This document shows, one piece after another, positions 98-15,295 of a stretch of DNA of 21,113 nucleotides. The notes below the pieces were generated by a model. It made no database searches. It saw only the letters and a program-made list of their open reading frames with translations, and was not told where the DNA came from. A program made the translations under genes and the position numbers. How positions within the stretch are numbered: position 1 is the stretch's first letter; each line of letters begins with the position of its first letter. Origin of the DNA: a virus; IMG/VR virus record IMGVR_UViG_3300030329_001584, positions 1 to 21,113 of that record; one strand, given 5' to 3'.

Positions 98-520
98 TTA
101 ATCAACTACGTACATAATCATTACGTAAAAGGAACCTGCCGCATCAGTAGCTGTGTTAGCTTTAGCTGCGATTTGTGTCTCTGATGAGTACGAAGCTAAG
201 TTTCCTGCTTCGTCTTCCATTTGAACACATCCTGCCGCTGTAACAGTAGTGTTAGTAATGAAAGCATCTGGATCAGCCAAAGTCCCTACAGAAATAGCTC
301 CCGTAGAACCTAAGTCATCATGCTTAAAAGTACATGCAAGAACTCTAGCTCCGGCAGGTAACTTCATAAGATAGACAAGATCATTCTGAGCAATAGCACC
401 TGACGCTGTATAAGAATCATAAGCAATATGGACACGACCATACTGCTCACCCTTTGGGATTAATTCCGAAGGGTTATTTATAAATTGTTTGGTGTAATTA
501 GCACCGTAAACTGTAGCCAT
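98..520 (-). CDS. Probable head decoration / minor head protein
   Basis: A 140-residue protein with no recognised catalytic motif. It is rich in Ala, Thr, Val and Gly, with alternating beta-like stretches (VLACTFKHDD, FYVMIMYVVD), as expected of a small virion protein. It lies 13 bases downstream of the major capsid gene in the same operon, where decoration, head-fibre or head-completion proteins are common. A good SD (GAGGGGG) sits eight bases upstream of the ATG. It is followed by a strong terminator, so it closes the head operon. The role is inferred from position and composition. It could equally be a capsid-stabilising or collar protein. Confidence 0.55.
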   Translation of the reverse strand: MATVYGANYTKQFINNPSELIPKGEQYGRVHIAYDSYTASGAIAQNDLVYLMKLPAGARVLACTFKHDDLGSTGAISVGTLADPDAFITNTTVTAAGCVQMEDEAGNLASYSSETQIAAKANTATDAAGSFYVMIMYVVD

Positions 521-533
521 ATATTACCCCCTC

Positions 534-1469
534 TTATTCAGTACACATAATTTCTACAACTTTCTCTTCTTCCATTCTAGTAGCACCAATAGACATACAA
601 GCATACACTTGTGTGCTGTATGACTTATCAGCTCTCTCAGAAATCTTCCCTTGAACATCTTTAGCAGTGGCCATAAGAAGTCCATCTTGCGCCCAAGCAA
701 AACATCTTCTAGCACCGACAGGAGCAGTAGCATTATCATCGCCATCTAGCTCACCAGTGACCTGATCATAAGCAACAGTAGCACTAAGAGTGTTTAGTCT
801 TTCTGATCTAATGAAGTTAAAGCCAAGGAACGTATTGATCTCACCTTGTACTAGGGCTTTAACACTGTTGAAGTCAGCACTAGTTACTGAAGTCTCTCCT
901 AAAAGAGCGTTAAGCTGAGAAGCACTGATAGCGATATATCTAGGAATAGACTCATCAATATCGTTAGCGTCAAACTTTTGCTTAACTTTTCTAAGCGTCT
1001 GAAGGTTCATGTTAGAAGTACCTGAACCATCGAAAGCACCTAGCTTCTGAGCATCTGGAAGAACAACAGAAGAAGCGCCTTCTTCTCCACCGTAAGATGT
1101 ACCAAGAGCATTCTCAATGATGACATCATCTTTAGCTCTACCTAAAGCCCAAACAGCAGCTTGAGCATAATCAGAAGTTGGGTCGATTAGCATACGAAGC
1201 TTATCAGTATCGTCAATCAAATCTGCCCATTCATAATCCACTAGAGTAACTCTACGTCTACTGTGTGCAGAGTCGATCTGTGGAGTGTCAGCATGACGTG
1301 AAGTTCTTTTCACGGCAGTAGCTGCACCAATTCTGTCATAGAAAGCAGACTTTCCAACTTGTTGTTCGTTTCTAACAAGACCAGAAAACTTGCTACCTTT
1401 TTGTTGGCTTAGGTGAAACACATTAGCAGAGAATTGTTTCACAAATGCCGTTGTAATTTCGCTAGACAT
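534..1469 (-). CDS. Major capsid protein
   Basis: A 311-residue protein that should form the icosahedral shell. Its features match the podoviral capsid family often labelled Phage_capsid_2: an N-terminal stretch with 'VFHLSQQKGSKFSGLVR', a central 'VTLVDYEWADLIDDTDKLRMLIDPTSDYAQAAVWALGRAKDDVI', and a C-terminal 'CFAWAQDGLLMATAKDVQ' ending in 'GATRMEEEKVVEIMC' (motif pieces, each within those regions). The SD (AAGGAG, eight bases before the ATG) is strong. It follows the scaffold gene after a 171-base non-coding leader, the longest gap in this operon, which suggests separate control of capsid expression. The fold should be HK97-like from family knowledge. Confidence 0.87.
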   Translation of the reverse strand: MSSEITTAFVKQFSANVFHLSQQKGSKFSGLVRNEQQVGKSAFYDRIGAATAVKRTSRHADTPQIDSAHSRRRVTLVDYEWADLIDDTDKLRMLIDPTSDYAQAAVWALGRAKDDVIIENALGTSYGGEEGASSVVLPDAQKLGAFDGSGTSNMNLQTLRKVKQKFDANDIDESIPRYIAISASQLNALLGETSVTSADFNSVKALVQGEINTFLGFNFIRSERLNTLSATVAYDQVTGELDGDDNATAPVGARRCFAWAQDGLLMATAKDVQGKISERADKSYSTQVYACMSIGATRMEEEKVVEIMCTE

Positions 1470-1544
1470 TTATTTCTCCTTAGTTATTTTAAACCACAAT
1501 ATAGGTTGAAATTGCCCCACGAGTGCAGGATTTCAGGTAGCACA

Positions 1545-1595
1545 ATTATAAAGGGTCCAGTCCCCAGAGGTGCGTGGCCTTATAACATCACCTCT
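1545..1595 (-). promoter_or_regulatory. Structured capsid leader with a TATAAT box
   Basis: The gap 1470-1640 between scaffold and capsid has no gene. On the minus strand it carries a perfect 7-bp inverted repeat (AGAGGTG/CACCTCT, 1566-1572 and 1589-1595). Next comes GACTGGAC (1562-1555), then a perfect TATAAT (1550-1545). A second weaker hairpin follows at about 1510-1536 (GAAAT..ATTTC). No -35 box stands at 17 bp from the TATAAT, so an ordinary sigma70 promoter is doubtful. The GACTGG.C-TATA layout resembles the sites at 7462 and 7598. It is a candidate promoter or leader for high capsid expression. Confidence 0.35.
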
Positions 1596-1640
1596 AGAAA
1601 CTTAGATTGTCCTGTGCCTTGAGATTAGTGTAATCTTATC

Positions 1641-2477
1641 TTAGACTTTTGTAAATAAGGTCTGAACTTCTTCCATTGCATTTTTATGATTTGGATGAGC
1701 CTTATCGAAGTAGGGATGATCTTTGTTAGCAAAGATGTCATTGAGCTTTCTTTGTGCTTCGTCAGGAGTAAATCCTAGCTCTCCTTTGACAGTACCTTTA
1801 AACTGATCTTCACTCAAAGTATCCCCGATCTTACTGAATGCTTTGATTAAGTTAGGATTGTTTCCCAAACCTGTCTCGTCAAGAAAGCTAACTAGGTTAT
1901 CATCACCGTAATGTCCTACGGCTGCTTGGGCTCTTTTAACTTTATCATCGTAAGCACTCCCCCACTCTTTTTGGAGTTCACGTACGCCATCGTTTTGAGA
2001 ATTAGTAAACTTCTCCTCATCTCTCTTGCCGGCTTCTTCTGCCGATCGAACGTACCAATCGAATACCTTTTGTGCTTGGTCGGGTAGAATACCTGCGCCG
2101 TGAGCAGTCTTCCTAAAGTCATCAAAGAACTCCTTATCTAGAGAATCAGACCCGTTTACCTGATACTTATCTACTTCTTCAGGAACTCCGATCTTAGTAT
2201 GGAATTGTTTCCACTCATCCTCTGTCGCATGTTTACCTGGAATAGTAACCTTATCTGCTCCAAGCATACGTTGTGAATGGACATAAGACTTAGCTAAGTT
2301 GTCTACTGATTTAATAGGACCTAGTGAAGGATCTGCTTTCAAGTCTTCAGGAAGAAAAGTTTTCCACTCTTCACCGCTAGAATACCAGTCGGGTTTTTCT
2401 ACAGGTGCAGCTTCTGCCGCTGGCTCCGCAGGTGTTCCTGCTACTTCAGGCTCTGCTGATTCAGTCAATGTACTCAT
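1641..2477 (-). CDS. Capsid assembly scaffolding protein
   Basis: A 278-residue, strongly acidic and charged protein that probably guides procapsid assembly and is absent from mature heads. The first 30 residues are a low-complexity Ala/Glu/Pro tail (SAEPEVAGTPAEPAAEAAP). The rest is predicted mostly helical, with 'DLAKSYVHSQRMLG', 'IPGKHATEDEWKQFHTKIGVPE' and a 'GFTPDEAQRKLNDIFANKDHPYFDKAHP' region near the C-terminus (given in pieces), all common in podoviral scaffolds. It sits directly before the capsid gene, the standard place. The start (SD GGAGAGA) overlaps the end of the Bbp19-like gene by 17 bases, indicating coupling. Confidence 0.8.
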   Translation of the reverse strand: MSTLTESAEPEVAGTPAEPAAEAAPVEKPDWYSSGEEWKTFLPEDLKADPSLGPIKSVDNLAKSYVHSQRMLGADKVTIPGKHATEDEWKQFHTKIGVPEEVDKYQVNGSDSLDKEFFDDFRKTAHGAGILPDQAQKVFDWYVRSAEEAGKRDEEKFTNSQNDGVRELQKEWGSAYDDKVKRAQAAVGHYGDDNLVSFLDETGLGNNPNLIKAFSKIGDTLSEDQFKGTVKGELGFTPDEAQRKLNDIFANKDHPYFDKAHPNHKNAMEEVQTLFTKV

Positions 2478-2730
2478 GTTCTCTCTCCATGCCTTTAGTT
2501 ATATGTTTTCTTAATTCCTCAGGCTTAACCTTTAGAATAGATAAAATCCTAAGTATGGCATTACGTGATCCTTCTCTTAGTGCCATCTCATGTACACACG
2601 AAGTAAACGTAGGAGCTAACATAAAGTTGTTTTTCATAAGATCAAAGAGGACACGCTCTCCTTCTTCTGTACTGAATACTGCCTTATAGTCGATAGCTAG
2701 ATCGACTTGCTTATCTATCTTAGATCCCAT
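2461..2730 (-). CDS. Bbp19-like small head protein
   Basis: An 89-residue protein. The segment from about residue 15 to 65 has the pattern 'DYKAVFSTEEGERVLFDLM ... TFTS ... MALREGSRNAILRIL'. This matches the Bbp19-type family of small phage structural proteins (F-x-T-x-x-G-x-x-V-L, then a REG-x-R-N motif) usually found between portal and scaffold or capsid genes. That is the position here: nine bases after the portal and overlapping the scaffold start. The SD AAAGGAAA supports the ATG. Its precise role in the head is not known. The family match is by eye. Confidence 0.6.
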   Translation of the reverse strand: MGSKIDKQVDLAIDYKAVFSTEEGERVLFDLMKNNFMLAPTFTSCVHEMALREGSRNAILRILSILKVKPEELRKHITKGMEREHEYID

Positions 2731-2739
2731 ACGTTTCCT

Positions 2740-4353
2740 TTATTGAGCTGCTTGCATAGCTTGCATAGCCTGAATAGCAGGGGCAGACTTCTGTACTACA
2801 TCTGCTTGATGTTGCTCCGTCTGCTGTTGTTCTGCCATAGCTTGCTGCTGTTGTCTAGCTTCTCTTGCCTGAATAACATCTTCTTGTGGTCTTAGTATCT
2901 CTTCAGGTATACCGTATGCTTTAGCAATATAACGTAAGGCTTGATCACCGTGGATGTTATCCATAACTTCTGGTTGCATCTGAATGATCGGACTAACAGT
3001 CTCAATAACTCTTAGGAAAGAATTAGCATCAGCAGCTCTTTGTGCCTTAGCTATCTGACTACTATACTGGACGTTTAGGACTCTATCCCCTAAAGCTTCT
3101 GGAGCTTCTTCAAATAGATTTTTTCTCATCATAATGTTAAACACTCTATCAATTAGAGGTCTTAGTAATTCGAACTGTTGCCGCCCAAGGATAGGACCAA
3201 GTAACCTTAGCTTCTCCTCAGTACGCTGAGAAACCTCAGTAGCAGTCATCTGTGGACCTTGCCCTAGCTGAAGCTGATCTATAAAGAAAGCTTCCCTAAT
3301 CCGCATCCTAATCTGCTCCATCATCTGATAGCCAAAGTCTACACGGCTACCTGTTTGCAATGGTTCAATACGATCAGGACTACCTGCTCTATAGTAATTA
3401 ATTCCGCCAGGAGCTGTCCGTATGGGCAATAAGATACCATCATCTGGCATCATAAGTGGAGGGTCTACTACCTTCTGAGCAGACCTAATAGTTGTTTTCA
3501 TGACCTGATTAATCATCTTAATATCGGCCAAAGCTTTCATAGCAGGTGATCTACCATAGATCTCTCCGGCTATCTTAGTCCATCTAGGTATGACGTAAGG
3601 AAATTCCTTAAACCCTTTATGGGACAATACTAGCTTCTTATCTCTTAATACGTAGACACTTCTAAACTTAAAACCTTTTGCAAGCTCAGGTCCATCGTAA
3701 GCTTCTGTAGCAGGCTCTACAGCATGAATAACTTCATGATCTACATACCTACCCTTGTCATCTTCAAGCAGTCTTTTCATTTCATCCGGCAAGTTCTCCT
3801 CACCAAACTCTTGAGCAATCTGCCTAGTTGACCACATCCAAGATCTATATACAGTATCTACCTGTCCTTTATTATTCTGATCAATGTAAGCTTCATAGAT
3901 AGGTCTAGAGTGAAAGCGTATAATGTCTTGATCATCTTCTTCCATTCTCATGCAAGCAGTTCCAAAAGAACATATGTCTAAGTAGACCTCATGTATCTCT
4001 GTTTGGAAGTTACTATTGTTGAGAACCCTGTGCATCTTCCTTACAGCCGACTGAAGCCATAGACGTACATCATCCTGTTGATCAACCAGTTCATCGCCAG
4101 TAGTAAGTTCAAACCACTGTGTACTAGGATTAGTAAGCATCCCGTGCAAAGCTGATGCAAGCATTTCGTTAGAATGGATGCCAGAAGAATCAAAGACTTT
4201 GTTCTGGCCTTTCTTCTCTCCGACCATTCTTGTCTTATAGATGTCATCTTTTCTTGGTAGAACATAGTCTGCAATCTCCTGCCAATGCTGTTCCCAATTA
4301 ATCCTATTAGATTTTAATTGCTCGAATCTCTCGATGATCTGTATAGCTGCCAT
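2740..4353 (-). CDS. Portal protein (podoviral head-tail connector)
   Basis: A 537-residue protein of the head-to-tail connecting family. It should form the dodecameric ring through which DNA enters and leaves the head. The start 'RINWEQHWQEIADYVLPRKDD' region (about residues 17-37) followed by 'FDSSGIHSNEMLASALHGMLTNP' (about 54-76) is the family signature, and 'EIYGRSPAMKALADIKMIN' and 'MTATEVSQRTEEKLRLLGP' recur in the core. The C-terminus (about 495-537) is Gln/Ala-rich low complexity. Length is typical of podoviral portals. Its ATG shares one base with the stop of the upstream gene (TAATG), so translation is coupled. Confidence 0.93.
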   Translation of the reverse strand: MAAIQIIERFEQLKSNRINWEQHWQEIADYVLPRKDDIYKTRMVGEKKGQNKVFDSSGIHSNEMLASALHGMLTNPSTQWFELTTGDELVDQQDDVRLWLQSAVRKMHRVLNNSNFQTEIHEVYLDICSFGTACMRMEEDDQDIIRFHSRPIYEAYIDQNNKGQVDTVYRSWMWSTRQIAQEFGEENLPDEMKRLLEDDKGRYVDHEVIHAVEPATEAYDGPELAKGFKFRSVYVLRDKKLVLSHKGFKEFPYVIPRWTKIAGEIYGRSPAMKALADIKMINQVMKTTIRSAQKVVDPPLMMPDDGILLPIRTAPGGINYYRAGSPDRIEPLQTGSRVDFGYQMMEQIRMRIREAFFIDQLQLGQGPQMTATEVSQRTEEKLRLLGPILGRQQFELLRPLIDRVFNIMMRKNLFEEAPEALGDRVLNVQYSSQIAKAQRAADANSFLRVIETVSPIIQMQPEVMDNIHGDQALRYIAKAYGIPEEILRPQEDVIQAREARQQQQAMAEQQQTEQHQADVVQKSAPAIQAMQAMQAAQ

Positions 4354-4745
4354 TAGTAATCACCTGTTCCTTGGCCACCTGCCCTTAATGCTTTTCTTCC
4401 TGGTGCTGCCCTACCTCTTACGACTTCTTGCTGTCTCTTCCGAAACAATCCCATCAGCCTCTGCACCTCTTCGCCGCCCTCTTCTTTATCTACAAGAGAC
4501 TCAGCCGCCATGCCAGTCCTTACAGTTTTTTCTACCCACTTATATTTTCCTCTACCTTCATACACTTTTTCCCTTACTCTTTTTGTTCCTTCACCTACTT
4601 CTGCAAGCTTAGGTCTATATTTATCTAGGTCAATAGTCATGTTAGCCATACCACCTGCTAAACCTCTTAGCTTTTCTATGTCTTGATGCCTAAAACCTGT
4701 AAACCTTTTTTCAGGCGCTGGCGCTCTACTTCCTCCAAAACTCAT
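4353..4745 (-). CDS. Unknown basic protein between terminase and portal
   Basis: A 130-residue protein that I do not recognise. It is very rich in Arg, Lys, Gly and Glu, with no membrane segment or cysteine. A central 'VREKVYEGRGKYKWVEKTVRTGMA' stretch (about 57-80, given in part) and a Gly/Arg-rich C-terminus (RGRAAPGRKALRAGGQG) suggest nucleic-acid binding or a flexible virion role. The SD GGAGGAG is excellent. It lies nine bases after the large terminase and overlaps the portal start by one base, so it is co-translated with packaging genes. Possible roles are a packaging accessory or an internal virion protein; neither is shown by the sequence. Confidence 0.65.
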   Translation of the reverse strand: MSFGGSRAPAPEKRFTGFRHQDIEKLRGLAGGMANMTIDLDKYRPKLAEVGEGTKRVREKVYEGRGKYKWVEKTVRTGMAAESLVDKEEGGEEVQRLMGLFRKRQQEVVRGRAAPGRKALRAGGQGTGDY

Positions 4746-4754
4746 CTCTCCTCC

Positions 4755-6056
4755 CTACATAAAATAGTCATACTCATCTAGGCTTACCCTAGGTAGGTCT
4801 TTATTCTCTGACCTAGTACCCTCTGGCTTCATCCCCATTGCCATGTACCTAAAGGCATCCGAACCATGAGAAGACCAGTCATGTTTAGGCTTCTGTAGAA
4901 ACATCTTATTCTTAGCATCCCACTTCCTCTGGTAATGCCTTAATGCCTCTATGCCCTTCTTACATTTTACCTCATCAAACCAACATTTGGGTAAGGTCAT
5001 ACGTGCCGCATGGATGCCATCATCCACCGACCACCTAGGTAAGATGTAGAGCTTACGTAGTCCCAAAGCTCGGAGAGTCTCCTCCCTACTCTTACCTGTC
5101 CCCAGTTCCCTTGCCCTAGCATCATGAGGGAGTGTGTGTTCTCTATAAATGTATGGCTTCTTTTGCAATGCCCGTACGTAGAAGTCAAGCCCTTGTCCTG
5201 CTTCTTCCAGATAATCTATAAGCCTATACTCATTCCCTATAACCTGGACAAACCAGATAGCCGAAGTATCACCTATCCCTAAGTCCCAGTAAGTATCTAC
5301 TGGTGCAATCGGATCATAAGGTACCTTTGTGATTCTACCTTCTTTATCTGCTTTCTCCAATAGCTTACCATAGTAAGAGCCAACCAGAGTAGCAGTAAAA
5401 CTACACTCAAATTCTTGCTCATACTCTTCCTCTGTCATTTCCCTCTTTGCCGCCTCAAGCTCACTGTCGGGAATAACTTTTGTTTCTGAAGCTCTATAGA
5501 TACGTACATACCAGTCAGGGTTTTGTTTCGCTTGATTGTAGATATCCCAAAAATGATTTTGCCCTTTCGGCGTACCGATAAAAATGGCCCAGCCCAGACG
5601 ATCAGATAGTGCAGGTCGAATAACTTGCGACCAAGCCGTAGGGTCCATTTCTGCGAATTCGTCCAGTACGACGCCATCAAGATAAATCCCCCGTATCCCT
5701 CCAGGGTTCTCAGCACCCATCAACATTAATCGAATCTTATCTTCACTCTCAGGCCGTTGAATATCTATCCGTAGATCAGCCTCATTAGCAGCAGCACCAG
5801 GAATATTACGAGTAAAATCTTTTAAGTATTCCCAAGCAACTCTCTTAGCTTGCCCGTATGTAGGGGCAACATATGCATACTGTGGATTCTTCTTGGTGTT
5901 ACGGAAAGCACGATCTATCATCTCACATATAGAAAGTACCGTCTTTCCAAAACGCCTATGAAGAACTAAAACATTGAACCGTTTTAGCTCGTTATATATT
6001 GTTGCTTGAAGAGGCCTAGGTGTAAAGCCTGTACTTATTCTCTGTACATTAGTCAT
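4755..6056 (-). CDS. terL: Terminase large subunit
   Basis: A 433-residue packaging motor that combines an ATPase and a nuclease. The variant Walker A is 'HRRFGKT' (33-39), the Walker B is 'VVLDEFAEM' (129-137, catalytic E next to D132), and the coupling motif is 'GTPKG' (161-165). The RNase H-like nuclease shows 'WDLGIGDT' (Asp258), 'LPHDARAREL' (Asp312) and 'HGSDAFRYM' (Asp400), so all three acidic positions are present. Length is normal. The start overlaps the end of the small subunit by eight bases, giving coupled translation. It should dock on the portal and translocate concatemeric DNA into the procapsid. Confidence 0.95.
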   Translation of the reverse strand: MTNVQRISTGFTPRPLQATIYNELKRFNVLVLHRRFGKTVLSICEMIDRAFRNTKKNPQYAYVAPTYGQAKRVAWEYLKDFTRNIPGAAANEADLRIDIQRPESEDKIRLMLMGAENPGGIRGIYLDGVVLDEFAEMDPTAWSQVIRPALSDRLGWAIFIGTPKGQNHFWDIYNQAKQNPDWYVRIYRASETKVIPDSELEAAKREMTEEEYEQEFECSFTATLVGSYYGKLLEKADKEGRITKVPYDPIAPVDTYWDLGIGDTSAIWFVQVIGNEYRLIDYLEEAGQGLDFYVRALQKKPYIYREHTLPHDARARELGTGKSREETLRALGLRKLYILPRWSVDDGIHAARMTLPKCWFDEVKCKKGIEALRHYQRKWDAKNKMFLQKPKHDWSSHGSDAFRYMAMGMKPEGTRSENKDLPRVSLDEYDYFM

Positions 6057-6609
6057 TTAAAGGTAACTCCAGTTGTGTTCCATGTGGAACATCTTCTTTG
6101 ACTTCTGCTTCCACATGTTCAACCTCATTACCTCTTCTGATTCCAGTATCAATTATAATCTGCATAGGTCCAGAAGGACCAGACGATGTAACTTTTGTCC
6201 CATACTCAGGATTAGCTCTTTCAGCTCCCCACTTATACAATTCACTTCTAAGTTTAAGACCTGCCACTTCTTCTTTGTCTATGTGGTCTTGCTCTGCTAT
6301 CTCCATGACTCGATCATAGTAGACATCTGCCCGATCTCGTCTGGCATCTTTTAAATTTCTAGCAAAGTCAGGATACCTTGTCCTCCAACTATAAATAGTC
6401 TGTACGTGCTTGATCCCAATTCTGGCTACGACCTGCTTATAAGTCATCCCCTCTCTAACTAGATGACAGATAGCATCTCCTAGCTCTGGTGTGTATGTTG
6501 GGTGTATTACTTTTGGAATCCAAGGACCTGACTCTGCTAAAGATTCACCCGTCTGGGCATCAATAACAACTATGTTCCCGTCTATAAGCTTAGTATAAGA
6601 TTCAGTCAT
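6049..6609 (-). CDS. terS: Terminase small subunit
   Basis: A 186-residue protein that should recognise the packaging site and regulate the large subunit. Residues about 39-90 form a helix-turn-helix (TPELGDAICHLVREGMTY, then KQVVARIGIKHVQTIYSWR and YPDFARNLKDARRDRA). This is the usual small-terminase layout of DNA-binding domain followed by a helical oligomerisation region (about 92-130). The C-terminal tail is acidic. The gene begins immediately after the zinc-ribbon gene without a spacer and has no clear SD, so it probably relies on coupling. The codons for VPHGT near the C-terminus contain a near-palindrome that is repeated in the primase gene. Confidence 0.85.
   Translation of the reverse strand: MTESYTKLIDGNIVVIDAQTGESLAESGPWIPKVIHPTYTPELGDAICHLVREGMTYKQVVARIGIKHVQTIYSWRTRYPDFARNLKDARRDRADVYYDRVMEIAEQDHIDKEEVAGLKLRSELYKWGAERANPEYGTKVTSSGPSGPMQIIIDTGIRRGNEVEHVEAEVKEDVPHGTQLELPLND
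6076..6091. repeat. parS-like near-palindrome, copy 1 (inside terS)
   Basis: TGTTCCATGTGGAACA has perfect 7-bp arms around a two-base centre. From established knowledge, ParB-binding parS sites of some proteobacteria read TGTTCCACGTGGAACA; this differs at one central base. On the minus strand the same 16 bases (ATGTTCCACATGGAAC) recur at 10633-10648. In both genes the site encodes VPHGT in a region likely to be flexible. Confidence 0.5.
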
Positions 6610-6945
6610 TTAGTATATCGTTAGTGGTTCATCTCTATATGGGTTAGTTTCTTTGCAAGCATCACAAATTCTGGTGAATTTGCCAAGAGCTTTAAACTTT
6701 TGAGAACATTTTAGGCAAGATCTGTCAAATTCTTCCGGCTTTTCTAGGTGTTTTGTAGAAAAACTCTGGTCACAATTGGGTGAACCGTACACTTTCTTTT
6801 CCTTTGGTGGAGGTTCAGGGATTGCAGGCTTGAAATTCTTTATCTTTGTCCATATTTCGTCAATACAATCGTCACACATAGCTGCTTGTTTAGCGTACAC
6901 CTGTACTTGTGCCCCGCATTCGACGCAGTATACCGTCCGGCCCAT
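6610..6945 (-). CDS. Twin zinc-ribbon protein, first gene of the packaging operon
   Basis: A 111-residue protein with two identical-spacing zinc-ribbon modules: C7-x2-C10-x13-C24-x2-C27 and C77-x2-C80-x13-C94-x2-C97. They are joined by a Pro/Lys-rich linker (about 38-51, PAIPEPPPKEKK). One extra Cys (58) lies between them. Such ribbons bind DNA, RNA or proteins, and related small proteins act in transcription or packaging; I cannot name a family. It is the first gene after the divergent control region, directly behind a good promoter (SD AGGGGG), and abuts terS. A role as a late-gene regulator or a terminase partner is an inference from position. Confidence 0.75.
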   Translation of the reverse strand: MGRTVYCVECGAQVQVYAKQAAMCDDCIDEIWTKIKNFKPAIPEPPPKEKKVYGSPNCDQSFSTKHLEKPEEFDRSCLKCSQKFKALGKFTRICDACKETNPYRDEPLTIY

Positions 6946-6965
6946 GGTTTACCCCCTATAAAATA

Positions 6966-6994
6966 AGTATATATGATGTGACGCGTCATGTAAA
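6966..6994 (-). promoter_or_regulatory. Sigma70-type promoter for the packaging operon
   Basis: On the minus strand: TTTACA (-35, 6994-6989), a 17-bp spacer, and TATACT (-10, 6971-6966), five of six consensus bases in each box. The expected start is near 6959, giving a leader of about 14 bases that contains the SD at 6955-6950 and the ATG at 6945. The spacer carries the palindrome TGACGCGTCA next to the -35 box, an ideal place for a repressor to block host RNA polymerase. Confidence 0.72.
6979..6988. promoter_or_regulatory. Operator-like palindrome inside the promoter spacer
   Basis: TGACGCGTCA is a perfect 10-bp palindrome immediately downstream of the -35 box of the packaging promoter. A related larger palindrome is at 7029-7043. 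The binding protein is unknown. The location suggests timing control of late genes. Confidence 0.5.
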
Positions 6995-7028
6995 TCTGAA
7001 AAATTCGTCCCACTTGGTTTACGCAGGG

Positions 7029-7043
7029 TGACGCAGTGCGTCA
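7029..7043. promoter_or_regulatory. Second operator-like palindrome
   Basis: TGACGCA-G-TGCGTCA has two perfect 7-bp arms around a single central base and shares the TGACGC/GCGTCA half-site with 6979-6988. Centre-to-centre distance is about 52 bp, close to five helical turns, which would allow cooperative binding on one face of the DNA. Confidence 0.45.
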
Positions 7044-7056
7044 TAGCTTTGTTTTG

Positions 7057-7089
7057 GGGGTGACACCCCGCAAAAAAGGGGTGGGGGTG
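7057..7089. repeat. GGGGTG cluster (G-rich asymmetric patch)
   Basis: Four copies of GGGGTG lie in 33 bases: 7057-7062, 7064-7069 (inverted, giving the palindrome GGGGTG-A-CACCCC), 7078-7083 and 7084-7089. The inverted pair 7064-7069/7078-7083 can form a 6-bp hairpin around GCAAAAAA. No T-tract follows, so it is not a standard terminator. It starts the GC-rich half of the divergent region. Confidence 0.5.
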
Positions 7090-7179
7090 CCGCAACGCAT
7101 TATATACCGCACCGTTTGACTCGGTACATCATATAGGCCATGCCGCAACGCCCCGTGCTGCGCCGCATCTCGCCGCACC
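7088..7179. repeat. TGCCGCAACGC / GCCGCA repeats, iteron-like
   Basis: An 11-bp direct repeat TGCCGCAACGC occurs at 7088-7098 and 7141-7151, 53 bp apart. The core CCGCA recurs at about 7106, 7162 and 7172. The block is clearly more GC-rich than its surroundings and non-coding. Such clusters are typical of replication initiator or repressor binding sites. Confidence 0.45.
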
Positions 7180-7231
7180 GCTCCAGGAATGTAGCGCCTT
7201 GAACGCTGTGTCATTGTGACCAGGAGAGTTA

Positions 7232-7256
7232 TGACGGGCTGACGGGCATGACGGGC
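7232..7256. repeat. Three tandem TGACGGGC iterons
   Basis: TGACGGGC occurs at 7232-7239, 7240-7247 and 7249-7256, in near-perfect tandem. A related CGACGGGC is at 7441-7448. An AT-rich stretch follows (about 7260-7365). Iterons next to an AT-rich unwinding zone, at the point where gene direction diverges, fit a candidate replication origin. Confidence 0.45.
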
Positions 7257-7409
7257 TAGTTCCCTATGTTACTTTATATACGTTATACACTATGCATTAT
7301 TATGCTATGCTTCTTTTTCTCTTGATTTCCAGAATACTTTAAAAGAATAATAAATACGTCCAACACGTCACGCATCTAGCTAAATGCCCTCTATTAAAGG
7401 CTTAAGCTG

Positions 7410-7603
7410 TTGACCCATTCACTCCATAAAGGGAGTCAATCGACGGGCACAATAAAAGGAGTTGACTGGTCTATTATATGTAACTTTTACATTGTCGGGC
7501 TTGACTCGTTCATTTATAAAAACTTTATGTAAAGACTTGACATCAACTAAAAGATATAATAAAAAAGGTTATCGATAATGAACCAGTCCCGACGATATTG
7601 ACT
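7410..7603 (+). promoter_or_regulatory. Cluster of TTGAC boxes upstream of the early genes
   Basis: TTGAC[T/C/A] occurs on the plus strand at 7410, 7462, 7501, 7537 and 7598 (and at 7116), and on the minus strand at 7439-7434. The copies at 7462 and 7598 share the 10-mer TTGACTGGTC. A perfect TATAAT is at 7555-7560, but only 12 bp from the TTGACA at 7537. TTGACT at 7501 has a weak TTTATG at 17 bp. The set probably contains early promoters or a repeated protein-binding site. No single copy is a convincing sigma70 promoter. Confidence 0.45.
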
Positions 7604-7623
7604 GGTCACCTATAACACTAGGA
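7582..7623 (+). promoter_or_regulatory. Leader element of the first early gene
   Basis: A perfect 7-bp inverted repeat (ACCAGTC 7582-7588, GACTGGT 7600-7606, 11-base loop) is followed by CTATAACACTAGGAG, which includes the SD. A similar arrangement is at 8338-8376: a 7-bp inverted repeat ending in TTTGGTC, then CTATTAACAAAGGGAG. Bases 7612-7623 are also repeated inverted just after this gene's stop codon. Confidence 0.45.
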
Positions 7624-7632
7624 GCTAACACA

Positions 7633-8205
7633 ATGAGTAATTTACTAGACTTCAAGGTCTTCCTTGAACATCCCCGCAGCAAAGATGGCGCAAAGCCTTC
7701 TTTGATCACAGACCATCATAAGATCAGATGGCAAGGCAAAAGGTTCAACCTTCCTACCTTCACGACGCACTACTGCGCACATTCTTCCACTAGAAACCTT
7801 GCAGAAAACCAAGTCAAAGGTGATAAGTACGCCGCAATGCGACTAAACATTTCTTATGATTACGCAAAGAATCAAAAGATGACCTTCTATATCAAACGAG
7901 TTGTCAACAATAAGATCAATGAAATTACTATGGAAGCGACTCAGGCATGGGAAGAGGGCAAGACACAGATTACTGGCAAAATGGTATATGATACCAAAGA
8001 CCTTTCAGAATATTGGGTTGAGAACCTCCCGACTATTAAATGCAGCCACGACAGAATCACATACAGCTTTGAAGAGATGTTTCATAACGCTGTAGTACAA
8101 GACCAGATACATGAGTTGGGCTGTGCTTACACACCTAAAGAATTTGAAACCGACCTGAAGGCACTACTCGGGAACCATTTGGCAGAGTCCACGGTTCTGA
8201 ATTAG
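7633..8205 (+). CDS. Unknown first early protein
   Basis: A 190-residue protein that I do not recognise. It is soluble, with no membrane segment, and has scattered His/Cys (HHK 28-30, HYCAH 46-50, CSH about 137-139) that do not form a clear zinc site. The middle part looks like mixed beta strands (KYAAMRLNISYDYAKNQ, KMTFYIKRVVNNKINEITM). The SD TAGGAG is nine bases from the ATG. It is the first gene rightward of the divergent control region, where phages often place host-takeover genes. It is monocistronic in appearance: a large hairpin follows the stop codon, and its leader and trailer contain a 12-bp inverted repeat. Function is unknown. Confidence 0.75.
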   Translation: MSNLLDFKVFLEHPRSKDGAKPSLITDHHKIRWQGKRFNLPTFTTHYCAHSSTRNLAENQVKGDKYAAMRLNISYDYAKNQKMTFYIKRVVNNKINEITMEATQAWEEGKTQITGKMVYDTKDLSEYWVENLPTIKCSHDRITYSFEEMFHNAVVQDQIHELGCAYTPKEFETDLKALLGNHLAESTVLN

Positions 8206-8217
8206 TCCTAGTGTTAT

Positions 8218-8254
8218 GCGTAGCGTCTAGAACTCACGACTCTAGGCGTTACGC
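8218..8254 (+). terminator. Strong RNA hairpin after the first early gene
   Basis: GCGTAGCGTCTAGA (8218-8231) and TCTAGGCGTTACGC (8241-8254) pair over 14 bp with two G-U wobbles and a nine-base loop. The hairpin begins 13 bases after the stop codon. No T-tract follows, so it may protect mRNA 3' ends or form part of a small RNA rather than act as a simple terminator. Confidence 0.5.
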
Positions 8255-8280
8255 TCTAACGCTATCAGTCTAATGCTTCG

Positions 8281-8358
8281 AATTAACATGATGTGTTATT
8301 CACATGACACCTTATGTTAATTGGACACACTAGACCCGACCAAATTTTTCCTTTGGTC
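8281..8358 (+). terminator. Nested hairpin and terminator-like hairpin in the 8206-8407 gap
   Basis: The gap has no gene. AATTAACAT (8281-8289) pairs perfectly with ATGTTAATT (8314-8322), enclosing a second stem ATGTG/CACAT (8291-8295, 8301-8305). Then GACCAAA/TTTGGTC (8338-8344, 8352-8358) forms a 7-bp stem followed by TTCTATT, a weak terminator candidate. Confidence 0.45.
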
Positions 8359-8407
8359 TTCTATTAACAAAGGGAGAGAGAGACTTTCCCCAAGCTAGGA
8401 TTATGGA

Positions 8408-8695
8408 ATGGTAAATCGATTAGACACAGAAGAATTTTCGTTTGTTACTTTACATGAGACTGAGAGGGCTTTATTAGTGGGCCTTGAAAAAGAGAGGATA
8501 CCAACGCCAGGCCTTGAGGTCAAAGGCAAAGAGGTAGAATCAATCATCACGTACGCTCGTGCGTGGTTCCCTAAATCCAAGTGTACTATTTCTGGCAATG
8601 ATATTGAGGTCCCTCAATGGATGTGCATTCAAAAGGAAATAGACAAGGAAGAAAACCAGTTCATGGTTTTTGATCTAAAAGATGAGGGCTTCTGA
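8408..8695 (+). CDS. Unknown small early protein
   Basis: A 95-residue acidic protein, not recognised. It begins 'MVNRLDTEEFSFVTLHETER' and contains 'GLEVKGKEVESIITYARAWFP' (in part) and a C-terminal 'NQFMVFDLKDEGF'. No membrane segment or catalytic motif is seen. An ATG at 8403 leads to an immediate stop, so 8408 is the start; AGGA at 8397-8400 is a modest SD. The leader CTAGGATTATGGA is nearly repeated before the primase gene (CTAGGATTTTGGA, 9934-9946). It stands alone between two structured gaps. It could be a host-takeover factor by location only. Confidence 0.6.
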   Translation: MVNRLDTEEFSFVTLHETERALLVGLEKERIPTPGLEVKGKEVESIITYARAWFPKSKCTISGNDIEVPQWMCIQKEIDKEENQFMVFDLKDEGF

Positions 8696-8711
8696 GCCAC
8701 CGCATCACTCA

Positions 8712-8733
8712 GGGTAGCGCATCGTGTCTACCC
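8712..8733 (+). other. Hairpin after the 95-residue gene, with tandem CGCATAA repeats behind it
   Basis: The gap 8696-8885 contains no gene. GGGTAG (8712-8717) and CTACCC (8728-8733) form a 6-bp stem with a ten-base loop, followed by AAAATCTT. Downstream at about 8745-8767 is the repeat ACGCATAACGCATAACGTA. A weak stem GACGC/GCGTC lies at 8784-8788 and 8810-8814. Confidence 0.4.
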
Positions 8734-8832
8734 AAAATCTTACATGACGCATAACGCATAACGTATACACTTATTATTAACCCGACGCATTACATCTTGA
8801 TAGGAGAGAGCGTCAACAGAAAAAAGATCTTA

Positions 8833-8856
8833 TCTCTCTATATGTATATAGGGAGA
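8833..8856 (+). other. Leader hairpin carrying the GGGAGAGA repeat
   Basis: TCTCTCTATA (8833-8842) pairs with TATAGGGAGA (8847-8856) through ten pairs including one G-U, with a TGTA loop. The 3' arm overlaps AGGGAGAGAGAGAC (8850-8863), which is an exact 14-base copy of 8371-8384. It lies in the leader of the next gene, 30 bases before its ATG. Confidence 0.5.
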
Positions 8857-8885
8857 GAGAGACACAAACCAAGGGAGAGGCAGAC

Positions 8886-9332
8886 ATGGAACTAGATCAG
8901 TGGCAGAGCTTTGATAAACGCAAGGCTAAGGAAGAGGCAAAGGTTAGATGGATTAGGCGGAAGAACGACTGGGTTAAGGACACGGGGATATATTCTACCG
9001 ATGACTTGATAGCTGACTACGTAAGGAAAACTAACGGGCATTTCTTTAAGCCTGAGACTATGAAGTTTTTTAACTCAAGGGTATCGGCAACGTTATTCCC
9101 TTCGCCAGATGAAAAGGTAATCTACTTCCTTACATCTGAGCAGGGACCGCATCAAGTACAGAGGATGTACACCCTACGCTACTACCGACCATCAGATGGG
9201 GAGATAGGGGAACCGGAAGGGCATAGCTTCCAACAGTACGATACATTACAGAAGGCAAAGCAAGCAGCTAAGAACAGGGCACACAGTACCATCGTGATAC
9301 AGGGAGGGATGCAGTATGAAGAGTGTCAGTGA
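8886..9332 (+). CDS. Conserved phage protein, DUF7447-like
   Basis: A 148-residue soluble protein. The section about 55-115 ('HFFKPETMKFFNSRVSATLF', then 'KVIYFLTSEQGP', 'RMYTLRYYRPSDGEIG' and 'FQQYDTLQKAKQAAKNRA') has the pattern FF-x-x-TMxFF-x-SRV, (Y)FxTSE, Y-T-x-R, A-x-x-A. I associate this with a domain of unknown function (DUF7447) common in phages; the match is from memory. The N-terminal 40 residues are very basic. The SD AAGGGAGAGG is strong. The gene overlaps the next by 17 bases and opens the run leading to replication genes. Confidence 0.65.
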   Translation: MELDQWQSFDKRKAKEEAKVRWIRRKNDWVKDTGIYSTDDLIADYVRKTNGHFFKPETMKFFNSRVSATLFPSPDEKVIYFLTSEQGPHQVQRMYTLRYYRPSDGEIGEPEGHSFQQYDTLQKAKQAAKNRAHSTIVIQGGMQYEECQ

Positions 9333-9603
9333 ATTCCGACGGAGACTACTACCTGGTAGTAAATGGCTGATGACTAACACATTAACGGGGTCACAGTTCA
9401 TAAGGGTAGTGAAGAGAAGGAACAATGGGCATGTAGTCTTCTATCATGATGGACCTGGCACCATTAAAGAGAGTTGGTTGCAGTATCCGAAAGCATCTGA
9501 ATGTGAGTATGATAACGGTTCGATTAGGATCAGGCTAGGGGATGGACACTACCTATCTTACAAGCAGCTAGAAAAACCAAGCGGTCAAGCACCACCAACC
9601 TAG
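9316..9603 (+). CDS. Unknown small basic protein
   Basis: A 95-residue protein, not recognised. It has a compact beta-rich pattern ('GSKWLMTNTLTGSQFIRVVKR', then 'HVVFYHDGPGTIKESWLQYPKASE' and 'RIRLGDGHYLSYKQLEKP', in pieces) that would fit a small barrel or SH3-like fold. This is a guess from strand alternation. It overlaps the preceding gene by 17 bases and has a good SD (GGAGGG, spacing seven). It is basic and lacks membrane segments. It is likely to be translated with the DUF7447-like protein. Confidence 0.65.
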   Translation: MKSVSEFRRRLLPGSKWLMTNTLTGSQFIRVVKRRNNGHVVFYHDGPGTIKESWLQYPKASECEYDNGSIRIRLGDGHYLSYKQLEKPSGQAPPT

Positions 9604-9662
9604 GGGGGATGATGATGTTAACCGTAACCTTGGGAATGAACGGTCCAATATAAGGGAGGGAC

Positions 9663-9902
9663 ATGACAATGGCAAGCACACCTACATTCTATATTGAGGG
9701 AGAGAATAAGGATGAGTACATGGTGATCGAAGGGTTAAGTGCAAGCGAAGCAGCCTGCTATTACAAGGCTTTCTATGGGAGAGAGCCTAAGCACATGAGG
9801 AAACTGGCAGGGAAGTACAGTTTCCCTAACACACATAAGAGTTACAGGGTTTCACTACCAGAAGGGACAAAGTTTCTACCAAGGATTGAAGAGTGGGTGT
9901 AG
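9663..9902 (+). CDS. Unknown small protein upstream of the primase
   Basis: A 79-residue protein, not recognised. It shows 'ATG' choices at 9663 and 9669. The polypurine SD (AAGGGAGGG, 9652-9660) is very close to the first and better spaced for the second, so the true product may begin MASTPTFYIEG. The middle contains 'LSASEAACYYKAFYGREPKHMR', a probable helix, and the end 'SYRVSLPEGTKFLPRIEEWV'. The pattern resembles small phage proteins with a single alpha/beta unit. It ends 51 bases before the primase start. Confidence 0.6.
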   Translation: MTMASTPTFYIEGENKDEYMVIEGLSASEAACYYKAFYGREPKHMRKLAGKYSFPNTHKSYRVSLPEGTKFLPRIEEWV

Positions 9903-9953
9903 CCCGACACTACACCCACCCAACAGATACACACTAGGATTTTGGATGATCTG

Positions 9954-12386
9954 ATGTCCACATTATACAGGAGCGCATTAACTATGGCAATACAGATACT
10001 AGGGTTAAGGGATTACGAAGTAAACGGGAAGATAAAAAAGAAAGAGGACTTCTTCTATAAGAAGTGGAGAGCAGAGAGTGTGCCTGATCTATTCAATAGA
10101 TTGGATGAGTACATGAATAAGATATGGAAGGTACCCCAAGAGGAGAGGATTAACCTCTACTATACAGCGGCATCATGTGTTGAGGACAGAGGGAGGAGAC
10201 TTGAGAGGCAGGAAGTGATACCCTTTGATGTTGATGACATAGATATACAGAGGGCAGAGGACTACATACCAGTGGTATGTAATGCTATCGGTATCAAAAG
10301 AAAGGAGACTGCCATTGTCATGAGTGGGAATGGCCTCCAGTTTATCGTTGGTATTAAGGAAGCTATCACCGATGAACATTTCTTTGGGGAGAATAGGAAG
10401 AAGTACAAGGAGTTGTGCAATGAGATTGATAAGGGACTTCGCAGTTCTAATTTGCCTGGCCATGCTGATGCATCAGTATTCAGCGCAGCTAGGCTATTAA
10501 GATTACCAAACACACTGAACGTAAAGATAGGGAAGGAATCAAGAGCGGCTCATGTTATAGAGAGTAAGATACTACCTATCCATTCACCGATTAGTAGTAT
10601 AGAAGGGGAGGACTTGCCTCCCCCAATACCAAATGTTCCACATGGAACTAAACCGCAAGCAGAAGTAAAAGATAAGGGAAAGAGATACGATCTACTTCCC
10701 CTTGATAGGGAAGGAGTGCTGACAGGTTGTGACTTCATAAAGTTTACGAAGACCAACCCAACTGAGGTGAAGGAGCCTCAGTGGTATTCGATGCTGTCTA
10801 TCCTTGGACGTATTGATAGGAAGATAGCTCATGAATATTCGGCAGGCCATAGTGATTACTCCTACGATGAGTGCGATGCCAAGATTGATCAAGCCTTGGA
10901 AGCAAGCGGTCCTATAACGTGTGAACATATTAGTACACAGTGGAGTGGGTGTGAAGGGTGCAAGCACTATAAGAAAGTGAAGAGTCCTATATCTATACGA
11001 CGTGATGCTTTCATCAGGAGTAAAGAGCTAGGGTTTAGGACACTCAACCTTAACAAGAACCCACCAACACAGGGCAAGCCTGACTATTCAGACCTGCTTA
11101 AATACTTTAGCATCAAGCACCCGTACGTGTCGCTTGCAGAGTACCGCTCCATATACACATGGAATGGTAAGTACTGGGAGGGGTATCCTCTTAATAAAGT
11201 AAAGGCATTTGCTGAGCAATGCATAGACTACCCACCTACCAATAGCGAAAGGGTAGAGTTCTTGGAGAAGACACTCGTTAATAACATGAAGGACCAAGAG
11301 TTCCTTAACCCATACGGGTACGCTAACTTTCAGAACGGTATGCTTAGACTACCAGGTGGTAAGAGTACAGGTGAAACTCTCCATGATATGGAAGCGTTCA
11401 AGTTGTATGACCATGACCCTGCCTTGGGATTAACTTACATCCTACCCTTTGACTACGGGAAGGAGAAGGATTGCCCTAGGTTTAAGCAGTTTGTTAAGGA
11501 AGTAACATGTGATGACCCGACACTAGAGTATGTACTCCAAGAGTACATGGGGTACGCACTATCTAACAGTGACCCTGAGCTAGGAGAACGTGCGCTCTTT
11601 CTACTTGGTGAAGGTAGCAATGGAAAGTCAGTCTTCTTAGATGTAATGAAATGGTTGGCAGGTGATGACAACTATAGCTCAGTACCTATCGATCAACTAG
11701 AGAAGGAGACATCACGCTTTGAATTGTACGGTAAGCTATTCAACGTGACAGAGGAGACACCACGGGCAGGACTAAAGGATTCATCCATCTTTAAGAACTT
11801 GGTAACAGGTGGAACCATGATCATACGCCAGTTATATAAGGACCCGATGACAGTTAAGAATAAGACTAAGCTTATCATGGCAGCGAATGAACTACCACGT
11901 AACCAAGATGTATCGAAGGGTATGTTCAGGAAGATACTGATAGTACCATTCAACGCCACGTTTGAGGGTGAGAAGATAGACAGAGGTATCAGGCAGAAGT
12001 TAAAGGAAGAACTACCAGGCATATTTAACTGGGCAATGGAAGGGTATGAAAGACTAAGGAAGAACTCGTTCCACTTCACTGCTAGTACGGCAGTGTCGAA
12101 TGAGGTTAGCTTATACCAAGACCTATCGGACCCACTAAGAGCATGGTGTAGGGAGAATGTATCAGTAGTAGATGATGAGGTGTTCACTCCCATTGAGGAG
12201 ATATACGCCAAGTATGTAGTAGACATGGAGGCAGATAGGCTAAAGGTAACACCTAAGAATTCATTTGGATTAAGACTTAAAAAGATATTTAAGTTTAAGA
12301 AAACGCAAAGGAAGTTAGTCGATGGTCGAAGGCTTAACTGTATGTATGGTATTCGGCTATCACTAGAGGAAGACTATGCAGTATAA
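9954..12386 (+). CDS. Primase-helicase (AEP-type primase fused to SF3/D5 helicase)
   Basis: An 810-residue replication enzyme. Residues about 85-190 look like an archaeo-eukaryotic primase domain: 'IPFDVDDID' (acidic pair near 92-94), 'VMSGNGLQFIVGI' and 'DASVFSAARLLRLPNTLN'. A zinc site follows (C323, H325, C333, C336). The C-terminal half carries a D5-type N-terminal region and an SF3 helicase: Walker A 'GEGSNGKS' (552-559) and 'IMAANELP' (641-648). It should unwind and prime phage DNA. The TTG at 9942 has a poorly placed SD; ATG 9954 is preferred, and ATG 9984, with AGGAG ten bases upstream, is a real alternative. The end overlaps the helicase gene by 11 bases. Confidence 0.88.
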   Translation: MSTLYRSALTMAIQILGLRDYEVNGKIKKKEDFFYKKWRAESVPDLFNRLDEYMNKIWKVPQEERINLYYTAASCVEDRGRRLERQEVIPFDVDDIDIQRAEDYIPVVCNAIGIKRKETAIVMSGNGLQFIVGIKEAITDEHFFGENRKKYKELCNEIDKGLRSSNLPGHADASVFSAARLLRLPNTLNVKIGKESRAAHVIESKILPIHSPISSIEGEDLPPPIPNVPHGTKPQAEVKDKGKRYDLLPLDREGVLTGCDFIKFTKTNPTEVKEPQWYSMLSILGRIDRKIAHEYSAGHSDYSYDECDAKIDQALEASGPITCEHISTQWSGCEGCKHYKKVKSPISIRRDAFIRSKELGFRTLNLNKNPPTQGKPDYSDLLKYFSIKHPYVSLAEYRSIYTWNGKYWEGYPLNKVKAFAEQCIDYPPTNSERVEFLEKTLVNNMKDQEFLNPYGYANFQNGMLRLPGGKSTGETLHDMEAFKLYDHDPALGLTYILPFDYGKEKDCPRFKQFVKEVTCDDPTLEYVLQEYMGYALSNSDPELGERALFLLGEGSNGKSVFLDVMKWLAGDDNYSSVPIDQLEKETSRFELYGKLFNVTEETPRAGLKDSSIFKNLVTGGTMIIRQLYKDPMTVKNKTKLIMAANELPRNQDVSKGMFRKILIVPFNATFEGEKIDRGIRQKLKEELPGIFNWAMEGYERLRKNSFHFTASTAVSNEVSLYQDLSDPLRAWCRENVSVVDDEVFTPIEEIYAKYVVDMEADRLKVTPKNSFGLRLKKIFKFKKTQRKLVDGRRLNCMYGIRLSLEEDYAV
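10634..10649. repeat. parS-like near-palindrome, copy 2 (inside the primase gene)
   Basis: TGTTCCACATGGAACT has 6-bp perfect arms (GTTCCA/TGGAAC) around CA. The 16-mer ATGTTCCACATGGAAC is identical to the minus strand at 6092-6077. It lies in the linker between primase and helicase domains, encoding NVPHGT. Confidence 0.5.
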
Positions 12387-13797
12387 GATACAACCATACG
12401 ACCACCAACTTAAAGCTATTGAGATGAGTAAGCAGCTAAAGGACATGGCCTTATTCTGGGAGATGGGTACAGGTAAGACCAAAGGAATGATAGAGATACT
12501 AAGACACAAGTATACAGAGGCAGGCAAGCTACTACCTACCCTGATACTAGCACCTGTTGTTACCTTGGAGAACTGGAAGCGTGAGTTCCTTACCCACTCT
12601 ACCATACCAGAGGGTAAGATCTTTGTGTGTTCAGGTACGGGAGTGAAGAGGCAGCGCCAGTTAAGGGAAGCATTGGTAAGCGATAGCATTATCATAATAA
12701 ACTATGAGGCATTGGTTACTATGAAAGTCTTTGAGCTACTGATGTACAGTAAGCTAGAGATTATAGTCATGGATGAGAGCCACTACCTAAAGAACCACAA
12801 GAGTAAGAGGGCAAAGAGGGTGCAGACATTAGCAAGCTCTCCATACATGAAGCATAGGTACTTACTCACGGGTACTCCCATACTCAACAGCCCAATGGAT
12901 ATGTTCCAACAGTATAGGATACTGGATGGTGGCGAGACATTTGGTAAGAACTTCTATGCGTTCAGAGGTACATACTTCTACGATAAGAATGCTAACTGGA
13001 AAGGACAGGTGTCGTTTGCTAACTGGCAGCCTATCTCTTCCAAGTTCCCTGAACTATCGGAGAAGATATATAGGAAGGCATCAAGGGTAACTAAGGCTGA
13101 GTGCTTGGACCTACCACCCCTCATAAAGCAGACTGAGTATGTAGCTATGAGTAAGGATCAGGCCAAAGCATACAAGGAAATGAAGGACAACTACCTTACC
13201 TTTGTTAAGGACACAGACAAAGCGGTGCTTGCACAGCTTGCAGTCACTAAGCTACTGCGCCTACAGCAGATAGTCTCAGGGTTCATGGTCACAGAAGAGG
13301 GTGAGGCGCTTGCATTTGATAGTGTGCCTAGGCTTGACAGACTAAGAGAATTAGTAGAAGAAATAACTCCCAATCATAAGTTGATTATATGGTGTAGCTT
13401 CAAAAAGAATTATGAAATGATTGCTACATTATTGGATGAGTTAGATATAAGATACGTAATGCTAACAGGTGGACAAAACACGAAGCAAAAACAGGAGGCA
13501 ATAGATGAGTTCCAATCAGAAGAAAGTAACAGTGCCAGAGTTGTTATCGCAAATAGACGCTCTGGTGGAATCGGTGTCAATCTTACGGCAGCGTCTTACT
13601 CCATCGTCTACTCAAGAGACTTCAACCTTGGCGACGAACTCCAATCAGAAGCAAGGAACCACAGAGGTGGGTCTGAAATCCACGACAAAATAGTGCAGCT
13701 TAATCTATGTGTAGCAGACACAGTAGATGAGGCAGTACTTGAGGCGCTTAATAATAAGCAGAAGATTAGCGATATCATAGTGGACTTAAAGATATGA
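12376..13797 (+). CDS. SF2 (SNF2-like) DNA helicase / translocase
   Basis: A 473-residue two-domain ATPase. Domain 1 shows the Q-like 'YDHQLKAIE' (8-16), Walker A 'EMGTGKT' (29-35), motif Ia 'LAPVVTLENW' (58-67), the DESH box (133-136) and motif III 'LLTGTPI' (163-169). Domain 2 shows 'IIWCSFKKNYEMI' (337-349), motif V 'GIGVNLTAAS' (398-407) and a motif VI-like 'QSEARNHR' (423-430). The DESH box and 'LTGTP' place it with SNF2-type proteins common in phage replication modules. Its start overlaps the primase gene (SD GAGGAAG) and its stop overlaps the next start as ATGA. It may remodel forks, recombination intermediates or protein-DNA complexes. Confidence 0.88.
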   Translation: MQYKIQPYDHQLKAIEMSKQLKDMALFWEMGTGKTKGMIEILRHKYTEAGKLLPTLILAPVVTLENWKREFLTHSTIPEGKIFVCSGTGVKRQRQLREALVSDSIIIINYEALVTMKVFELLMYSKLEIIVMDESHYLKNHKSKRAKRVQTLASSPYMKHRYLLTGTPILNSPMDMFQQYRILDGGETFGKNFYAFRGTYFYDKNANWKGQVSFANWQPISSKFPELSEKIYRKASRVTKAECLDLPPLIKQTEYVAMSKDQAKAYKEMKDNYLTFVKDTDKAVLAQLAVTKLLRLQQIVSGFMVTEEGEALAFDSVPRLDRLRELVEEITPNHKLIIWCSFKKNYEMIATLLDELDIRYVMLTGGQNTKQKQEAIDEFQSEESNSARVVIANRRSGGIGVNLTAASYSIVYSRDFNLGDELQSEARNHRGGSEIHDKIVQLNLCVADTVDEAVLEALNNKQKISDIIVDLKI

Positions 13798-15234: not shown

Positions 15235-15245
15235 GGTATACCTTA
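15232..15245. promoter_or_regulatory. Perfect 14-bp palindrome over the stop codon
   Basis: TAAGGTATACCTTA is fully self-complementary and starts at the TAA stop of the putative SSB gene. It lies 51 bases before the start of a ribbon-helix-helix protein gene and 16 bases before a terminator. Ribbon-helix-helix proteins typically bind short palindromes as dimers, so autoregulation is a reasonable hypothesis. Confidence 0.45.
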
Positions 15246-15260
15246 CAGTTAGTCGTTAGT

Positions 15261-15284
15261 AGGGGACCAAGTGTCCCCTTTTTT
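15261..15284 (+). terminator. Rho-independent terminator between the SSB-like and ribbon-helix-helix genes
   Basis: AGGGGAC (15261-15267) and GTCCCCT (15273-15279) form a perfect 7-bp stem with a CAAGT loop, followed by five more T residues. The next gene's SD (GGAGG, 15287-15291) begins three bases after the T-tract. Polymerase transcription must come from readthrough or antitermination, since no space for a promoter remains. Confidence 0.9.
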
Positions 15285-15295
15285 ATGGAGGCGAG

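Follow-up and report, generated by a model that had tools for sequence, protein, structure and literature searches.

Where does an uncultivated phage begin to copy its genome, and what do the repeats between its divergent operons contribute to that step? This question is raised by a 21,113-base stretch of DNA, here called the window, from an uncultivated podovirus-like phage (IMG/VR record IMGVR_UViG_3300030329_001584) that is probably a piece of a longer genome. A gap of 687 bp (6946-7632) separates its leftward morphogenesis genes from its rightward genes and holds all of the repeats noted so far. An original prediction read 7057-7256 as one field of iterons beside an AT-rich tract, and proposed it as a candidate for the origin at which a primase-helicase starts. 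Our analysis suggests that the gap is a composite control region, in which the terminase half (6966-7069) would hold a leftward promoter and a conserved palindromic element, and the early-gene half would hold the origin, which we are modestly inclined to place at 7232-7450 (Table 1). The prediction of an origin therein is supported for the TGACGGGC and GACGGGC repeats with the AT-rich tract, on the strength of the architecture seen in relatives and the class of the primase-helicase, and falls for the whole field taken as one unit.

The candidate origin is built on three near-tandem TGACGGGC units (at 7232, 7240, and 7249), which stand directly before the AT-rich tract, with GACGGGC occurring once more beyond it, a fourth copy that had been missed. 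The TGACGGGC unit has no copy elsewhere in the window and was reproduced in 0 of 100 shuffles. No other 100-mer of the window is lower in GC or less stable than the tract, and the predicted contrast in composition is clear (61% GC in 7057-7256, 27% in 7257-7360, and 42% in the window). Repeated 6-, 7-, and 8-mers in 7057-7256 are above those of all 1,000 dinucleotide shuffles, with 13-17 of 1,046 segments elsewhere equalling or exceeding its repetitiveness, and the repeat field folds no better than shuffled sequence (z 0.04).

Relatives carry the same arrangement at the same place. Two viral contigs, L001 and L002, have the gene order of the window and primase-helicases 55-58% identical to its own, and their least stable 100-mer of the examined locus lies in the same gap, at 13% and 18% GC, weaker-paired than the tract of the window. 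It is bordered by TGGACAGGGTGGACA on the left and, on the right, by similar repeats in inverted as well as direct orientation. These repeats (GGTRGACA/GGACAGG) differ in sequence from those of the window; 3 of 3 copies of GGTRGACA in the L001 locus and 4 of 7 in the L002 locus fall in the gap (Poisson P 8e-7 and 7e-6, values that are optimistic because the motif was chosen after inspection). Indeed, the least stable 100-mer falls in this gap in the window, in L053 (the L001 contig), in L054, and in L004, a contig close to the window in the terminase region, which has the degenerate units GACGGAC, TGACGTAG, and TGACAGGC at this place. The comparison of repeats in relatives that had been proposed as a check supports an origin beside the AT-rich tract. 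The arrangement is shared, with a repeat sequence that is group-specific, as would be expected if the repeats follow a binding protein. Because repeats flank the AT-rich tract in this way in L001 and L002, and match the origins of phage-inducible chromosomal islands (PICIs) and Staphylococcus aureus pathogenicity islands (SaPIs), an origin is the best reading of this part of the gap; in PICIs, the AT-rich region lies between two iteron sets (PMC6092414).

The proposed initiator is the phage's own D5-type primase-helicase, which matches PDB 7ola 'DNA primase' (E 2e-17) as well as DUF5906 and D5_N. Its N-terminus may be an archaeo-eukaryotic primase (AEP), judging from sequence motifs read by eye and not from a tool result. 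The C-terminal 70 residues weakly resemble the RFX winged-helix family (E 0.006, which misses Pfam's cut-off), and the C-terminus is the least conserved part of the protein. We infer that this enzyme binds the iterons on either side of the easily melted tract, perhaps through its C-terminal domain, and that it would then melt the tract, load as a ring, and prime synthesis for the phage PolA.

Table 1. Features of the gap and the proposed initiator gene, with positions in the window and the basis of each call.
Feature	Position	Strand	Basis
Leftward promoter TTTACA-17-TATACT before the zinc-ribbon/terS/terL operon	6966-6994	-	Scan match 10/12, same in L004
Terminase-linked composite element	6979-7069	-	Alignments and independent model match (E 1e-4)
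Perfect palindrome TGACGCAGTGCGTCA, candidate operator	7029-7043		Similar sites in L004, L005, L009, L016
GC-rich CCGCA/TGCCGCAACGC field	7078-7182	+	Repeats, sharing with L004
Left iteron set, TGACGGGC x3	7232-7256	+	Repeat counts
AT-rich tract, least stable 100 bp of the window, candidate unwinding region	7257-7356		GC and stability scans
Fourth GACGGGC copy, right of the AT-rich tract	7442-7448	+	Motif scan
Possible early promoter, TTGACA and TATAAT only 12 bp apart	7537-7560	+	Read from sequence
D5-type primase-helicase, proposed initiator	9942-12386	+	Domain and structure-profile matches

What, then, of the remaining repeats? All of those listed by the original prediction are present: four GGGGTG units (direct at 7057, 7078, and 7084, inverted at 7064-7069), two TGCCGCAACGC repeats 53 bp apart (7088-7098 and 7141-7151), and six CCGCA cores on the same strand between 7068 and 7177, with CGCCGCAYC found twice, at 7161 and 7171. 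The TGCCGCAACGC repeat has no further copy in the window even with one mismatch, and none arose in 100 shuffles. GGGGTG occurs five times in the window, which is not above chance (mean 6), with four of the five inside 33 bp; the bare count of CCGCA is likewise not beyond chance. Their union into a single iteron field did not hold, as the outer GGGGTG units lie in a terminase-linked element and the CCGCA field is clearly shared with L004 only. Between the CCGCA fields of the window and L004, shared 6- to 10-mers are far above shuffles, and an exact 14-mer, CGCATTATATACCG (7096-7109), is common to both; sharing with L001 is at most marginal, and there is none with L002. This field changes fast and may be an array of operators for the rightward operon.

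The division of the gap shows in two contigs close to the window in the terminase region, L004 and L005 (TerL 98-99% identical). L004 is 95% identical to the window through 7071, cannot be aligned across 7072-7232, and matches again at 81% in 7233-7274; its first early gene is unrelated to that of the window, and its second is 78% similar. L005 is 88% identical, and its contig stops at window position 7080. Because the L004 alignment breaks after 7071 and the L005 contig stops at 7080, these alignments indicate a module junction at ~7070, with most of the noted repeats on the early-gene side, and that the half of the gap to the right of it is exchanged together with the early genes.

To the left of this junction stands a composite element with the layout GGGGGNNNCCCCCAAA, ~43 bp, ACTGGGACAA.TTTTT, ~10 bp, TTGACGCA. 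In the window, its parts are a palindrome at 7056-7069 (GGGGTGTCACCCCC, minus strand), the block GTGGGACGAATTTTTCAG at 6996-7013, and TGACGC at 6983-6988. Upstream of terS in L009 (TerL 60%) are GGGGTGCACCCCCAAA, ~45 bp, GGGACAAGTTTTTCAG, and then TTTGACGCAGTGCGGC; in the same order, the minus strand of the window reads GGGGTGTCACCCCCAAAA (from 7069 downward), GTGGGACGAATTTTTCAG (7013-6996), and TGACGCGTCA (6988-6979). The element is found upstream of terS at near-fixed spacing in at least 12 phages, some with ~60% TerL identity and some with other early modules (the window, L001, L002, L004, L005, L008, L009, L013, L014, L018, L020, L064, and L072), and L017 has part of it. A model that uses sequence alone, derived from nine distant copies and used to search 292 kb, matched at the exact place in L004 (E 1e-7), L053 (1e-6), the window (1e-4), and L005 (2e-4), with weak matches in the L002 contig. 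A loose pattern for the palindromic element matched 20 contigs, 14 of them by chance. Since the composite element recurs at near-fixed spacing upstream of terS in relatives and is matched by the model, the outermost GGGGTG units are arms of its palindrome and not iterons. Their inverted symmetry had been missed, as had the perfect palindromes at 7029-7043 and 6979-6988. The second of these, TGACGCGTCA, lies inside the spacer of the leftward promoter, which overlaps the end of the element. Conservation of this promoter in L004 and L005 is the ground for calling it, because the promoter scan, by count, is at chance level. An intrinsic terminator at 7056-7069 was considered and rejected, its A and T tracts being on the wrong sides as read from the sequence; the sole terminator-like scan match, at 7028-7044, is near chance level.

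The element could serve as a packaging site or in control of the late operon. In the former case 6979-7069 would be a cos or pac site, with the palindrome as the cut site and GGGACAA.TTTTT as the site of the small terminase. We hold this as a tentative possibility, a little short of an even chance. Its retention beside terS down to ~60% TerL identity speaks for a packaging site, and the order of its parts resembles that in phage lambda, in which a GC-rich palindrome and an adjacent block are followed by terS. In addition, contigs end within ~350 bp of it in nine cases (L005, L012, L013, L014, L016, L017, L018, L071, and L072), two of them (L071 and L072) at an identical base. These ends, however, cluster just upstream of the element, spread over several points and not at one point of it, and assembly breaks at a variable module border would explain them equally well. 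The overlap with the leftward promoter fits late-operon control too, and the small terminase is like that of Sf6, a phage that packages by headful. As a separate observation, L071 and L072, which belong to separate metagenome records, stop 109 bp past the pattern match, and L064 runs through this point; a DNA terminus is possible, as is an assembly effect. It is tempting to speculate more broadly that a large group of uncultivated podoviruses package their DNA from this so far undescribed, widely shared element, which would adjoin a fast-evolving, exchangeable iteron origin. We consider this larger proposal doubtful; if true, copying and packaging would start side by side, and the origin could be exchanged at the palindrome.

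Several findings weigh against an origin at 7232-7450. The window has one repeat copy only on the right of the tract, the degenerate units of L004 are not above chance by count, and a distance of 2.3 kb separates the candidate from the initiator gene downstream of it, unlike the SaPI origins, which lie directly 3' of theirs. The AlphaFold model of the primase-helicase was too poor for use. Nor does GC skew, which had been suggested as a check, discriminate: the minima (8368 in the window, 7574 in L053, and 9029 in L054) sit close to where the genes switch strand, and skew was rejected as proof of an origin, since in the window the maximum falls at the convergent gene border and the minimum tracks gene orientation. 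Repeats and AT-rich DNA between divergent operons would also fit a regulatory region, and perhaps the whole gap is an early/late transcription switch, in which repeats and palindromes are operators, the AT-rich tract is promoter DNA, and replication starts elsewhere. The meeting of divergent operons in the gap, the conserved leftward promoter with a palindrome in its spacer, and the perfect 15-bp palindrome at 7029-7043 all suit such a switch. So do promoter-like matches in L001 and L002 that overlap the repeats at the AT-rich tract, but matches of this kind are at chance level except in L002. A 100-bp tract at 13-27% GC with repeats on both sides exceeds what a promoter needs, and the near-consensus early promoter of L004 (TTGACA-17-TATATT) lies ~60-90 bp before the first early gene, a distance like that of the possible early promoter of the window, and away from the repeats. 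On balance, we regard a switch that accounts for the whole gap as rather unlikely.

A very improbable location for the origin is the region between the first two early genes, where two adjacent long hairpins (8209-8335) form the strongest folds of the window and might act as an origin of the stem-loop kind used by pRN1, which requires a 100-nt stem-loop (PMC4234260). The cumulative GC-skew minimum at 8368 is close by, but it is shallow. As RNA, the hairpins fold better in the sense strand than in the antisense strand (-58 versus -50.9 kcal/mol; z -9.2 versus -5.6), which argues that the feature belongs to the transcript, for instance as an RNase III site between early genes. Furthermore, their location is not 3' of the primase gene, which overlaps the next open reading frame (ORF) at its end, and folds are weaker in the regions tested of L001 and L002. 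The likely role of these hairpins is in RNase III processing or mRNA stability. Between its first two early genes, L004 carries other hairpins.

Around the gap, the gene content is that of a phage. The leftward genes (~98-6945) encode capsid-like and portal-like proteins, TerL (Terminase_6N), TerS (Sf6 type), and a small zinc-ribbon-like protein, and the rightward genes (7633-17569) include small early genes, the primase-helicase (D5_N and DUF5906), an SNF2 helicase, a Pam3_gp34-like protein, and a family A DNA polymerase, among others. The primase-helicase has no close match in any named phage, the best named ones covering at most 61% at ~24-31% identity among the matches listed, and no named phage was found by DNA match to the window. 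Scans of the window found no known RNA families or tRNAs; in bacterial genomes, the protein scan found no relatives and the pattern scan chance matches only. Two contigs of 70 and 105 kb (L009 and L010) share the terminase module, encode a primase-helicase of 35% identity, and are far above the expected genome size of a podovirus. Just before the iterons, at 7216-7243, CCAGGAGAGTTATG combines a ribosome-binding-like sequence with an ATG that opens a three-codon frame only, and comparable short frames come after GGGGAGTCAATG in L001 and GGGGGTCGATG in L002. Other arrays occur on the upstream side of the terminase-linked element. L017 has six tandem 13-bp units CACGTCAATCAAT (49-125) ~35 bp from the palindrome, and L008 has a textbook origin-like array (1-115) ~1.1 kb from the element, in which the 10-bp unit CGTGTCCGAT occurs four times next to an AT-rich stretch and two perfect DnaA boxes, TTATCCACA.

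It is seldom known where an uncultivated lytic phage has its origin, and the candidate described here is a concrete one. It would place in a phage a class of primase-helicase whose ties with iteron origins come mainly from satellites and islands, and it offers a recipe for relatives, namely a search for the weakest-paired tract together with group-specific repeats. The element beside terS, in turn, may mark a signal for late genes or for packaging in many phages from the environment, and a simple model finds it.

How does this locus compare with known systems? By terminase, the nearest named relatives are pelagiphages of the HTVC010P group and similar phages (46-48%), and the palindromic element was not found in the HTVC203P record. 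No DnaA box (TTWTNCACA) is present in the gap, and the one in the window, at 8296, is at chance level. Phage NrS-1 shares a primase-helicase fusion; its PrimPol motif TTTGGTTA (PMC8718748) is absent from the window as an exact match, and from the gap even when one mismatch is allowed. pRN1 and BIP-1 share a primase fused to an SF3-type helicase, and no non-coding DNA lies 3' of the primase-helicase gene of the window to hold a stem-loop of their type. Satellite phage P4 has a phage-encoded fused primase-helicase and origin repeats, which are bound by the winged helix of its alpha protein (PMC4234260), and a C-terminal winged helix may be present in the window protein as well; P4 alpha has a Toprim-type primase. 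Closest in architecture are the PICIs and SaPIs, elements that encode D5-related primase-helicases (PMC6092414; PMC7581432). SaPI Rep and Cch2 of staphylococcal cassette chromosome mec (SCCmec) use C-terminal domains to bind iteron origins, and SaPI5 Rep is a primase-helicase fusion (PMC7581432). The flanking arrangement of these islands is clear in L001 and L002, and takes the form of three copies on the left and one on the right in the window. The window differs in its iteron sequence, in belonging to a phage that itself encodes morphogenesis proteins and PolA, and in a gap that ends 2.3 kb upstream of the initiator gene, the 3' end of which overlaps the SNF2 ORF. Because the candidate is not directly 3' of the initiator gene, we do not class it as PICI-type, and postulate only that it works like such an origin.
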